Below, piece after piece: positions 19,160 to 25,687 of a stretch of DNA of 64,000 nt (position 1 is its first letter; each line of letters starts with the position of its first letter). The notes beneath the pieces were generated by a model, which saw only the letters and a program-made list of their open reading frames with translations, was not told the DNA's origin and did no database searches. The stretch comes from Chromohalobacter beijerinckii (lineage in GTDB: Bacteria; Pseudomonadota; Gammaproteobacteria; Pseudomonadales; Halomonadaceae). Location: contig NZ_JAKGAK010000006.1 in assembly GCF_023061185.1 (NCBI RefSeq), positions 62,001 to 126,000 on the forward strand, written 5' to 3'. A program made the translations under genes and the position numbers.

Positions 19160-19594
19160 GACCGCGCCATGGAATGGTCCGTCCCCGATAAGGATCAGAC
19201 CCGGCGCTCGCCCCGGTATTACGCATGAGCAAAGTGGGCTTGCGTTTGGCTGGCGCCTTGACTACCATCGAGACGTTCGCCTGTTCCGAATGCTTCCTGA
19301 CCGTTCACGCGGCATTGCCGTCGCGGTCCTCCAAGTCGTCAGATCGCCCCAAGTATTCTTGTCTCGCCAAGCCTCCCGATCAGGAGCTGGGCATGGCGCC
19401 AGGCGACGCGAACCGAATCTCTCAATACCGTTTTTCGCCAATCCCTCGCGCGGCGATGCCTTGAGGCATGAATGCGATGAGTGGAACGGATTTCCTGGGG
19501 CCCTCTGAACGCACCGCGCGGCGCACAACCGCCTCCTGTCTTTTGTCCGGCAATCCCATTGCCTCGCCGACACGAGCAATCTCTGACGAAACCG
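19160..19594 (+). promoter_or_regulatory. rho promoter and long untranslated leader
   Basis: This 435-base gap holds no convincing gene. A candidate promoter is TTGCGT at 19240-19245, a 17-base spacer and TACCAT at 19263-19268, which would leave an untranslated leader of about 320 bases. Long rho leaders are the site of Rho-dependent autogenous attenuation in E. coli; whether that occurs here cannot be seen directly. Confidence 0.45.
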
Positions 19595-20854
19595 ATGAAT
19601 CTTACCGAACTCAAGCAAAAAACCGTTCCCGAACTGCTGGATATTGCCCGGGAAATGGGCATCGACAATCTGGCACGTTCGCGTAAACAAGACATCATCT
19701 TCGCCATTCTCAAGAAGCATGCGAAAAGTGGTGAAGACATTTATGGCGATGGTGTGCTGGAAATCCTGCAGGATGGCTTCGGCTTTCTTCGCAGTGCTGA
19801 CAGCTCCTATCTGGCCGGCCCCGATGACATCTATGTCTCGCCGTCGCAGATCCGTCGCTTCAACCTGCGCAAGGGCGATAGCATCGCCGGCAAGATCCGG
19901 CCGCCGAAGGAAGGGGAGCGTTATTTCGCGCTGCTCAAGGTCAGTCAGATCAACTTCGACCGGCCCGAAAACGCCAAGCACAAGATCCTGTTCGAGAACC
20001 TGACGCCGCTGTTCCCGCAGGAACGCATGGTGATGGAGATCGGCAATGGCTCGACGGAGGATCTGACCTCGCGGGTAATCGATCTTACGTCGCCCATCGG
20101 CAAGGGCCAGCGTGGTCTGATCGTGTCGCCGCCCAAGGCGGGCAAGACGCTGATGTTGCAGAACATCGCGACGTCGATCACGCGTAACAATCCCGAATGC
20201 CATCTGATCGTGCTGCTGATCGATGAGCGTCCCGAAGAGGTCACCGAGATGTCGCGCACCGTGCGTGGCGAGGTGGTGGCCTCGACCTTCGATGAGCCGC
20301 CCGCGCGTCACGTCCAGGTCGCCGAGATGGTCATCGAGAAGGCCAAGCGTCTGGTCGAGCACAAGAAGGACGTGGTCATCCTGCTCGATTCCATCACCCG
20401 CTTGGCGCGTGCCTACAACACCGTGGTGCCGTCCTCGGGTAAGGTATTGACCGGTGGTGTCGACGCCCACGCGTTGGAAAAGCCCAAGCGTTTCTTCGGT
20501 GCGGCGCGCAACATCGAGGAAGGTGGCAGTCTCACCATCATCGCCACCGCGCTGGTCGACACCGGCTCCAAGATGGATGAAGTCATCTTCGAGGAGTTCA
20601 AAGGGACCGGCAACATGGAGGCGCACCTCGACCGCAAACTGGCCGAGAAGCGCGTCTATCCCGCGCTCAACATCCGCCGCAGTGGTACGCGCCGCGAGGA
20701 CCTCATTGCCTCCGAGGAAGAGATGCAGCGCATGTGGATTCTGCGCAAGCTGCTCAATCCCATGGATGATATCGCGGCGACGGAATTCTTGATCGATCGC
20801 TTGAAGGATACCAAGACTAACTTGGAATTCTTCGAGGCCATGAAGCGTAGATAA
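19595..20854 (+). CDS. rho: Transcription termination factor Rho
   Basis: Hexameric RNA helicase that terminates transcription. From ATG 19595 the protein has 419 residues, as in E. coli. It begins [15 protein letters not shown] (N-terminal helix bundle), followed by the cold-shock-like RNA-binding fold (about residues 48-120), and the RecA-like motor with Walker A PPKAGKT at 179-185. The Q-loop and R-loop regions ([12 protein letters not shown] area) are intact. The frame continues upstream to 19481, but that part lacks family similarity. Confidence 0.97.
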
Positions 20855-24127: not shown

Positions 24128-24155
24128 TTGTCAAATCGCGACAGCCGTGTAGGAT
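24128..24155 (+). promoter_or_regulatory. Candidate promoter for the DAHP synthase leader
   Basis: TTGTCA at 24128-24133 (five of six consensus), a 16-base spacer and TAGGAT at 24150-24155. The transcript would begin near 24162 and the leader peptide ATG at 24180 would follow about 18 bases later. Confidence 0.45.
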
Positions 24156-24179
24156 GAGAGCATGTTTTGGAGTCAACCC

Positions 24180-24314
24180 ATGTCGATAGCATCAGCCACC
24201 GCAAGCACGCATTCCCTGCCGGTTCAGGTAGTGGAAAACGCTGTGCGTGCGTTCTTTGGCTTTAGCTATTGGTATTGGTTTAGCCCCGGCGTGCCCGGCG
24301 GTAGGGTCACATGA
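24180..24314 (+). CDS. Aromatic leader peptide upstream of DAHP synthase (attenuation)
   Basis: A 44-codon ORF whose core reads FFGFSYWYWF (codons at 24252-24281): four Phe, two Tyr and two Trp in ten codons, a density typical of leader peptides that sense aminoacyl-tRNA supply. GGAG at 24169-24172 lies seven bases before ATG 24180; an in-frame ATG at 24162 would add MFWSQP, but it lies at the predicted transcript start. The ORF stops at 24312-24314, just before mutually exclusive RNA structures and a strong terminator. It is too short for normal gene finders. The peptide probably has no function beyond ribosome stalling. Confidence 0.85.
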   Translation: MSIASATASTHSLPVQVVENAVRAFFGFSYWYWFSPGVPGGRVT

Positions 24315-24395
24315 CCTGATACGCCGCGAGGCACGCCCCACCCCGGGTTGCCTCCAGCGTCTTCGAACCCCCGGTCGGCAACCCGACCGGGGGTT
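24288..24395 (+). terminator. Attenuator: rho-independent terminator with competing antiterminator
   Basis: The terminator stem is CCCCCGGTCGG (24368-24378) with CCGACCGGGGG (24383-24393), loop CAAC, followed by five T. A competing perfect nine-pair helix joins CGGGTTGCC (24344-24352) to GGCAACCCG (24377-24385), which uses both terminator arms. Upstream helices GAGGCA/TGCCTC (24328-24333 with 24349-24354) and GGCGTGCC/GGCACGCC (24288-24295 with 24330-24337) compete in turn. This is the layout of a translation-controlled attenuator. A further GGGGG...CCCCC with T7 (24389-24420) could act as a back-up terminator. Confidence 0.85.
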
Positions 24396-24443
24396 TTTGC
24401 GTTTAATCCCCCCTTTTTTTGACGAATGACACGGGAGCGAAAC

Positions 24444-24590
24444 ATGTTCGAGATCGGCGGCGCATGGCAGAGCACGCAGGCACTATATTATTGGCGATTT
24501 AGCGACGTCCGGTCGGCCTTAGCTGCCACCTCCGACCGTGAAACGCTGGGTGGCGTCCGCCGAACACGAAGTTCCGCTGTCCGCTCGTGA
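24444..24590 (+). CDS. Second candidate leader ORF before DAHP synthase
   Basis: A 48-codon ORF with a clear ribosome binding site (GGGAG at 24433-24437, six bases before the ATG). Residues 15-19 read YYWRF, again a small aromatic cluster. It stops 26 bases before the DAHP synthase ATG. A stem CGGTCGG/CCGACCG (24510-24516 with 24532-24538) lies within it and CTGTCCG/CGGACAG (24577-24583 with 24591-24597) spans its stop. It may be a second sensor or a translational coupler; it could also be chance. Confidence 0.4.
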   Translation: MFEIGGAWQSTQALYYWRFSDVRSALAATSDRETLGGVRRTRSSAVRS

Positions 24591-24616: not shown

Positions 24617-25687
24617 ATGAACGCACCCTTGACGATGCCCCAACGCCCCGATGTCGCCACGGCACCCTCTCATCAGCCCTTGCCCACGCCGGGTGAGCTC
24701 AAGCAGCGCCTGCCGCTGGAAGACGCCCTCGGTGAGCAGATCGAACGCCAGCGTGGCGAGATTCAGGCCATTCTCGACGGGCGTGACGACCGCCTGCTGG
24801 TAGTGGTGGGGCCCTGCTCGATCCACGATCCGCGCGCGGCGCTGGAATACGCCGAAAAGCTCAGTGAGCTCGCCGCGCGCCTCGACGACCGTCTGCTGAT
24901 GGTCATGCGTGTCTATGTCGAAAAGCCGCGTACCACCGTAGGTTGGAAGGGCCTCGCCTATGACCCGCACCTGGATGGCAGTGACGATATGGCGCAAGGC
25001 CTGGAGGTCTCGCGGCGCTTGATGCGTGACATCGCCGCTCTGGGCATGCCCGTGGCCACCGAATTGCTGCAGCCGATGGCTGCGCCGTACCTGGAAGACC
25101 TGCTCAGTTGGGTGGCCATCGGTGCGCGCACCACCGAGTCGCAGATCCATCGTGAACTCGCCAGTGGCCTGCGGGCCGCGGTGGGCTTCAAGAACGGCAC
25201 CGACGGCAGCGTCGATGTCGCCGTTGCCGCGATGCAGTCCGCTGCGCACCCGCACCGTCATTTCGCCCTCGACGATGCCGGCCGTCCGGCGATGCGCGAG
25301 ACCGACGGCAATCCGCATACCCACGTGGTGCTGCGTGGTGGGCATGGCAAGCCCAACTACGATGCGGATTCGGTTCGTGCCTGTCGCCGCACGCTACAGA
25401 GCGCCGGCATCACGCCGCGTCTGATGGTCGACTGCAGCCATGCCAATTCGCGCAAAGACTACCGCCGCCAGACCGAGGTCATGCTCGATGTGCTCGAGCA
25501 GCGCCTGGCCGGCGATCGCGATCTGGTCGGCGTGATGCTGGAAAGCCACCTATATGAAGGCAAGCAGTCGCTGCAGCCGGGTGCCATGCGTTATGGCGTC
25601 TCCGTCACCGATGCTTGCCTGGGCTGGGACGGCACCGAGCATCTGCTGACATTGGCCGCCGAGCGGTTGCGCGATGCCTGTGCCTGA
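24617..25687 (+). CDS. Class I 3-deoxy-7-phosphoheptulonate (DAHP) synthase
   Basis: First committed step of the shikimate pathway: condenses phosphoenolpyruvate and erythrose 4-phosphate. From ATG 24617 the protein has 356 residues (E. coli AroF has 356, AroG 350). Family blocks are intact: GPCSIHDP at 65-72, RVYVEKPRTTVGWKG, GARTTESQ, GFKNGTDGS, DCSHANS and YGVSVTDACLGW. A GTG at 24587 is in frame but has no ribosome binding site. Which of the AroF/AroG/AroH types it is cannot be settled by eye; the upstream leader with Phe, Tyr and Trp codons suggests control by general aromatic supply. Confidence 0.95.
   Translation: MNAPLTMPQRPDVATAPSHQPLPTPGELKQRLPLEDALGEQIERQRGEIQAILDGRDDRLLVVVGPCSIHDPRAALEYAEKLSELAARLDDRLLMVMRVYVEKPRTTVGWKGLAYDPHLDGSDDMAQGLEVSRRLMRDIAALGMPVATELLQPMAAPYLEDLLSWVAIGARTTESQIHRELASGLRAAVGFKNGTDGSVDVAVAAMQSAAHPHRHFALDDAGRPAMRETDGNPHTHVVLRGGHGKPNYDADSVRACRRTLQSAGITPRLMVDCSHANSRKDYRRQTEVMLDVLEQRLAGDRDLVGVMLESHLYEGKQSLQPGAMRYGVSVTDACLGWDGTEHLLTLAAERLRDACA

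Follow-up and report, generated by a model that had tools for sequence, protein, structure and literature searches.

A predicted aromatic leader-peptide attenuator and a second conserved leader ORF upstream of the DAHP synthase gene in Halomonadaceae and Pseudomonas relatives

The DAHP synthase gene in the window (the whole stretch of DNA analysed here, 64 kb) is preceded by a short ORF, leader 1, with a run of aromatic codons, a terminator and a set of mutually exclusive helices. With a probability of roughly 0.87, we read leader 1 as an attenuator by which the ribosome controls transcription of the DAHP synthase gene, and which senses charged Phe, Tyr and Trp tRNA together. A second short ORF, leader 2, lies between the terminator and the gene; judged from its sequence in relatives, it appears to be a real, conserved and probably translated element, and in our view it forms a second gate or coupler, dependent on translation and acting after read-through.

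Leader 1 and its target gene

The features of leader 1 and of the gene, all on the plus strand, are the following.

24128..24155, + strand: promoter-like site TTGTCA-16-TAGGAT (TTGTCA at 24128, TAGGAT at 24150-24155), with a 9/12 match to the consensus
24180..24314, + strand: leader 1 ORF, MSIASATASTHSLPVQVVENAVRAFFGFSYWYWFSPGVPGGRVT, with ATG at 24180 and TGA at 24312-24314, 44 aa (ORF listing, relatives)
24252..24281, + strand: aromatic codon run FFGFSYWYWF (codon count)
24257..24393, + strand: match to Rfam RF00627 (P15), 49.1 bits, E 6.6e-9, over the full 119-position model
24288..24295, + strand: segment B, partner of C (24330-24337) (pairing and covariation)
24328..24337, + strand: segment C, partner of B, or of D through 24328-24333 : 24349-24354 (pairing and covariation)
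24344..24354, + strand: segment D, partner of C, or of E in the antiterminator 24344-24352 : 24377-24385 (pairing and covariation)
24365-24396, + strand: terminator, a 14-pair stem followed by a T-rich stretch (sequence fold)
24366..24385, + strand: segment E, 5' arm and loop of the terminator, with 24377-24385 as partner of D (pairing and covariation)
24383..24398, + strand: segment F and the T run of the terminator (pairing and covariation)
24617..25687, + strand: DAHP synthase gene, aroFGH type, 356 aa (TIGR00034, 454.9 bits, cutoff 173.2)

Leader 1 has three features expected of a ribosome-controlled attenuator: a short ORF (its translation being predicted) with a run of codons for the amino acids of the pathway, an intrinsic terminator between this ORF and the gene, and a conserved antiterminator helix that excludes the terminator (D:E, with B:C and C:D covarying as well). 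The earlier note on this DNA had claimed a 44-codon aromatic leader with a ribosome-binding site and four Phe, two Tyr and two Trp within ten codons; the ORF, a GGAG at 24169-24172 5' of its ATG and the count of eight aromatic residues in ten codons were all recovered. Among 103,878 stop-free windows of 10 codons on both strands of the 64 kb, just six contain at least 6 aromatic residues, and these overlap and all derive from the leader 1 run; first-order Markov copies (n=20) have on average 0.25 such windows, and none with at least 7. The leader 1 RNA also folds better than 200/200 shuffles (z -6.6). The site at 24128-24155 is a plausible transcription start by pattern match alone, because the upstream neighbour is a dihydromonapterin reductase-like SDR gene on the same strand.

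Conservation of leader 1

Relatives of leader 1 were collected with the P15 model and with a scan blind to the downstream gene. Scanning the window with Rfam at the gathering cut-offs gave no match, and since its score lies below the RF00627 gathering score of 70, the window leader is a relative and not a member by Rfam's rule. P15 matches at E 0.01 or better were found in 48 of 61 genomes of the family (one of the 61 over the cut-off), with DAHP synthase downstream in 30/30 of the family loci fetched, which were the best 30 matches. At 0.001, 27 of 293 genomes of the order match, 14 of them over the cut-off, and DAHP synthase is downstream in 27/27. No match was obtained in 13/61 family and 266/293 order genomes, searches whose filters lose weak matches (G010, for instance), and none of the 14 control genomes gave a match. 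All of the fetched P15-model loci (n=53, including that of the window) precede DAHP synthase and encode a leader peptide.

The gene-blind scan, with the pattern GGGTATTGGTTTAGC-N(50-80)-CCCCGG over genome contigs, gave at least 119 loci. Those listed are mostly from Pseudomonas and also from Stutzerimonas, Halopseudomonas, Alcanivorax, Alloalcanivorax, Denitrificimonas, Halotalea, Salinisphaera and a few others; no P. aeruginosa is among them, and the link to DAHP synthase concerns other Pseudomonas species. In 118/119 of the scan matches listed the motif is part of an open frame that has GYWFS close to its end, and an ATG was found in 117; in L137 the leader 1 frame runs off the upstream end of the slice. 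DAHP synthase begins 130-424 nt after the motif in 110 of the 119 listed, and the slices of another eight end no more than 548 nt past the motif. L122, a match in a Rhodospirillaceae bin, looks like chance. Because the YWFS codons are prescribed by the scan pattern, nothing follows from their constancy, and the weight is carried by the additional Phe and Tyr codons, the starts and the stops.

The 53 P15-model loci and the 110 listed scan matches with the gene make 163 loci. Their 300 nt upstream show 159 different sequences, since four pairs are identical there, each pair being one record in duplicate. YW[F/L] occurs in an ATG-started ORF in 162 of the 163, with 5-8 aromatic residues in the last 11 up to YW[F/L], the exception being L137. 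DAHP synthase had been named beforehand as the target of the attenuator, and in all 163 fetched loci leader 1 precedes a DAHP synthase gene. The earlier note had also made its reading depend on whether related genomes conserve the aromatic run and the alternative helices; both are kept in relatives, and on this point the reading was not refuted.

When the leader 1 model R2 was searched against 369 genomes of the class at 1e-4, with filters that lose weak matches, six genomes matched, two of them in a further family. The second R2 match in one genome (G510, locus L181, E 3.3e-5) was rejected as chance, having neither the leader motif nor DAHP synthase. A rescan at the gathering cut-off found P15 in 7/8 loci, among them those of Pseudomonas sp. 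GM50, P. guguanensis and P. protegens (L058, L069 and L078) at 99.8-135.7 bits; it found no P15 in L097, from Alcanivorax sp. DP30. P15 scores over the cut-off span 70.6-135.7 bits.

Alternative helices and ribosome position

A strong terminator and a perfect competing nine-pair helix, both claimed previously, are present in the window, and the helix, D:E, covaries among relatives. Covariation was measured in 38 diverse leaders plus the window (39 sequences), chosen among 159 loci (four of the 163 were missed by the script). Paired cells amount to 88.4% for B:C (21 double-changed cells vs 4.9 in shuffles), 93.8% for C:D (14 vs 4.9), 81.5% for D:E (16 vs 6.1) and 96.1% for the terminator E:F (16 vs 3.0). 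For each of the four helices the double-changed cell count or the covariation score was equalled by 0/500 shuffles, and controls with slid partners paired at most 57.7% (B:C), 50.3% (C:D), 50.5% (D:E) and 67.1% (E:F). When pairs with a double change are counted instead, which is the stricter measure, D:E and C:D are unusual, each reached by 1/500 shuffles, and B:C (94/500) and E:F (107/500) are not. Alignment column 93 has a partner in B:C and another in C:D, and it changes along with both. The antiterminator is imperfect in many relatives, since two positions of D:E fail to pair in 21-22 of the 39 sequences. A further helix, A:B, which is part of the P15 model structure, exceeds shuffles by one standard deviation in 22/39; the window fails (z -0.8).

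These helices suggest a relay. When charged aromatic tRNA is short, the ribosome would stop in the run and leave B free to pair with C; with B:C formed, D would pair with E, the terminator would be delayed and transcription would continue. With a good aromatic supply the ribosome would run on and cover B, C would pair with D, and E would remain free for the terminator E:F, so that a short RNA would be released, which in Pseudomonas would be the Rfam 'sRNA P15'.

Folding with the ribosome placed on the leader was carried out in two versions, one in which RNA on both sides of the ribosome may pair and one restricted to RNA downstream of it, with transcription up to 24385. For the window, the downstream-only model gives D:E a probability of 0.98-0.99, together with B:C, when the hungry codon is any of the first seven aromatic codons (24252 to 24276), and 0.49 for a hungry last Phe (24279); at positions after the run and at the stop, C:D forms and D:E falls to 0.04-0.08. 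The flip therefore sits at the end of the aromatic run. Across the 39 sequences in this model, D:E rises by more than 0.1 on stalling in 23, falls in none and is unchanged in 16, while C:D falls in 21 and rises in one. Without a ribosome it predicts antitermination, which helix A:B would turn off. The version with upstream pairing gives the reverse, the antiterminator standing at 0.00-0.15 with the ribosome stalled in the run and at 0.97 with it at the stop. The folding check proposed in the earlier note thus agrees with attenuation in one version and opposes it in the other. Models of this kind usually leave out pairing around the ribosome, and for that reason we prefer the downstream-only version, a choice made after the result of the first version. 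In full-length RNA the terminator wins in every ribosome state, and the switch must therefore be kinetic. The on/off logic, left open in the earlier note, is best read as B:C with D:E versus C:D with E:F.

A second conserved leader ORF

The earlier note described a single leader, a description that has to be given up, since a second conserved leader ORF stands between the terminator and the DAHP synthase gene. Its features are listed below.

24444..24590, + strand: leader 2 ORF, MFEIGGAWQSTQALYYWRFSDVRSALAATSDRETLGGVRRTRSSAVRS, preceded by GGGAG at 24433-24437 (ORF listing, relatives)
24492..24501, + strand: TGGCGATTTA, Trp-Arg-Phe codons, invariant in 42 aligned rows (rows picked by the WRF peptide, not by codons)
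24492-24496 : 24524-24528, + strand: alternative helix T1, pairing the Trp-Arg codons with the 5' arm of S2
24509..24554, + strand: candidate H-type pseudoknot, S1 24509-24516 : 24532-24539 and S2 24525-24530 : 24549-24554

The leader 2 peptide begins MFEIGGAWQSTQALYYWRFSDVRSALAATSDRETLGG, and the ATG of DAHP synthase lies 26 nt past its stop. A script that looked for an ATG ORF with WR[F/C/Y] found leader 2 in 150 of the 163 loci (147/159 distinct loci). In L031 it picked leader 1, though the TGGCGATTTAG site is present, and L050 reads WRC; four of the 13 loci that fail the rule (L003, L047, L052 and L141) still have CGATTTAG in a short ORF. L049 and L097, which are the same locus of Alcanivorax sp. 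DP30, carry a short ORF, MYRYQP..., at the place of leader 2, with the CGATTTAG site lost.

The codons of the site are nearly fixed: TGG in 150/150, CGA in 147/150 and TTT in 148/150, with L031 and L050 as exceptions for both CGA and TTT, and CGC in L108. Both CGA and TTT are rare in the DAHP synthase genes of 103 named loci, where CGA makes up 95 of 2567 Arg codons and TTT 29 of 464 Phe codons. Among the 59 loci with a 50-codon leader 2, codons 15-17, 22, 24, 26-28, 34-35 and 47-48 are invariant and several others vary silently, and the constraint on leader 2 is therefore partly at the nucleotide level. It is a short element whose codons are nearly fixed across families, and we found no described role for it. 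A programmed frameshift at CGA-TTT was rejected: reading of the frames showed neither a classic slippery heptamer nor a fusion with the gene. The GATTTA in leader 2 bears some resemblance to a tRNA-like fold or an RNase E site. Near the leader 2 stop, CGAACAC (or its CGATGTTCGACAC variant) recurs in many aligned loci, at 24561-24567 in the window, and the codons CGA-ACA are invariant there in the 59 Pseudomonas-type leaders.

S1 and S2 interlock in two lineages, the Halomonadaceae-type and the long Pseudomonas-type leaders, and S1 begins five nt past TGGCGATTTAGC; in the short Pseudomonas-type leaders the pseudoknot was not seen by eye. The alignment used here has 42 rows: the window and 41 of the 52 diverse rows taken from 101 loci. 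S1 and S2 together pair in 93.2% of cells, vs 90.9 in shuffles and at most 50.3% in slid controls, and show 11 double-change cells vs 3.4 in shuffles, a count reached by 0/500. In the count of pairs with a double change the two stems do not stand out (50/500 shuffles), and all such pairs are in S1, none in S2; one S1 pair is unpaired in 18/42 rows. Helix T1, which is mutually exclusive with S2, fits 99.5% of cells without covariation; with one arm fixed, it cannot covary. A model of the pseudoknot region matched 2/369 class genomes at 1e-4, with filters that lose weak matches, both in its own family and one being its own genome.

A further reading, to which we give less than even odds, joins both leaders: in Halomonadaceae and Pseudomonas relatives two ribosome sensors would act one after the other on DAHP synthase, first a three-amino-acid transcription attenuator, which would be the true nature of 'sRNA P15', and then a second leader in which a ribosome pausing at the rare codons UGG-CGA-UUU would switch an mRNA pseudoknot and so gate the gene again. 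Three narrower accounts of leader 2 were weighed. If leader 2 were a translational gate, a stall at Trp-Arg-Phe would alter access to the ribosome site of DAHP synthase. A DAHP synthase start was called in 146 of the 150 leader 2 loci, and the leader 2 stop falls -17 to 50 nt from it in 145 of these, the exception (L031) being the script miscall; in six loci it lies at -4, in an ATGA overlap with the start. This closeness suggests coupling, and T1, in excluding S2, uses the Trp-Arg codons themselves. However, T1 lacks covariation, and in constrained folding without pseudoknots stalling makes access to the site better in 22 and worse in 26 of the 146 loci, so that opening of the site by a stall was rejected as a consistent effect. 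By class, access rises in 7 and falls in 7 of the 69 long Pseudomonas-type loci, rises in 15 and falls in 19 of the 74 others, and changes in none of the 3 assigned to the Halomonadaceae, the class rule having caught only three loci of that family, most others of which sit among the 74. We consider the translational gate rather doubtful.

A second transcription gate through Rho, in which the ribosome or the pseudoknot would hide or expose a C-rich stretch, also seems to us an improbable account. In its favour, 302 nt separate the leader 1 stop from the gene, the 3' part of leader 2 has C 0.37 and G 0.18 in the 69 long Pseudomonas-type loci, and tandem leader ORFs with separate signals are known from Salmonella mgtCBR, according to the portion of PMC3641672 at hand; yet the DAHP synthase start in the same 69 loci is equally C-rich (C 0.41, G 0.20), composition does not single out the region, and a Rho site was rejected on that basis.

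Finally, leader 2 could act as an arrest peptide, or as a pause on slow codons, and so reduce the output of DAHP synthase when aromatic amino acids are high; we consider this unlikely. The Y-rich..WRF peptide is kept and the CGA and TTT codons so strongly retained are rare in DAHP synthase genes, but the invariance is at the level of nucleotides and not of the peptide, which points to RNA or to codon speed, and the Trp is replaced in L003, L047, L052 and L141.

Relation to sRNA P15 and to known leaders

The window leader belongs to the same sequence family as RF00627, and the earlier description of it as unannotated does not hold for its Pseudomonas relatives, which are already in Rfam as 'sRNA P15'. 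The Rfam line differs from our reading in giving the type 'Gene', an sRNA name, and one consensus structure and in naming neither a leader peptide nor a target; what we find points to a leader that regulates in cis. It is very improbable that the P15-like RNA is a free trans-acting sRNA lying before DAHP synthase by chance with an incidental ORF: the Rfam type and name, the listing of P15 in PMC2375449 (as far as that source was available) as one of the sRNAs that Livny et al. detected in P. aeruginosa, and the identical appearance of a terminated leader favour it, against an aromatic-run leader ORF in nearly all loci (weighing the extra aromatic residues, the starts and stops and the 53 P15-model loci), a constant place before the gene, and covarying alternative helices that would be useless to a simple sRNA. 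P15 is thus probably a cis attenuator, and RF00627, listed as a small RNA gene, gains a likely function and target.

The alternation of exclusive helices ending in a terminator or an antiterminator resembles the his operon leader (RF00514), with its six-segment logic. The two differ in sequence: the best match of the His_leader model has 18.6 bits, on the minus strand, where the gathering score is 49.

A leader of aroF named AroR, in Corynebacterium glutamicum, was reportedly described by Neshat in 2014. Like leader 1, AroR is a leader peptide with aromatic codons (Phe-Tyr-Phe) ahead of a DAHP synthase gene, aroF, and its stalling under Phe limitation raises transcription (available parts of PMC11802643 and PMC4046766 for the leader, PMC11802643 for the stalling). 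It differs in belonging to another phylum and in having three aromatic residues, with no Trp or second leader named in those parts of PMC11802643 and PMC4046766. Aromatic-leader attenuation of DAHP synthase, as read in the earlier note, is supported here, although it is not unprecedented and, as a principle, was already known from the Corynebacterium leader (PMC11802643, in the part available). In Acholeplasma, the uORFC-13-1 motif before aroF has likewise been proposed to act by attenuation; it resembles leader 1 as an upstream ORF with a Phe codon and an apparent terminator before a DAHP synthase gene, and differs in its unrelated group and in having at least one Phe codon only (PMC8632094, in part). 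For E. coli aroF, attenuation was hypothesised by Camakaris 1980, as cited in the same portion of PMC8632094.

Two short ORFs in one leader, as here, are found in Salmonella mgtM/mgtP of mgtCBR, which differ in responding to ATP and proline signals and in serving another gene, leader 2 being known from conservation and structure alone (PMC3641672, in the portion at hand). The main text of an attenuator survey (PMC2965389) contains none of the terms aroF, aroG, DAHP, shikimate, chorismate and phenylalanine. In the literature searched, mostly outside subscription journals, 'RF00627' was not found in any paper, and neither P15 nor a Pseudomonas DAHP synthase gene was found tied to a leader peptide. 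As predicted from sequence, the new element would be the sensing of three amino acids in one relay-type leader followed by a second leader, a combination that we did not find described in that literature.

A second DAHP synthase in the same genome

The same genome has a second DAHP synthase (G000:C1:30560-31579, L002), 51% identical to the first, and neither the listing of its upstream ORFs nor models R1 and R2 at 1e-4 revealed these leaders. The earlier statement that leader 1 sets entry into the shikimate pathway is right as to the DAHP synthase target and too strong as to the pathway, given this second enzyme without leaders found. Pseudomonas, the Halomonadaceae and some relatives may control entry into aromatic synthesis in this way, at a step useful in metabolic engineering. 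The gene for the transcription terminator Rho also lies in the window, at 19481-20854 on the same strand.
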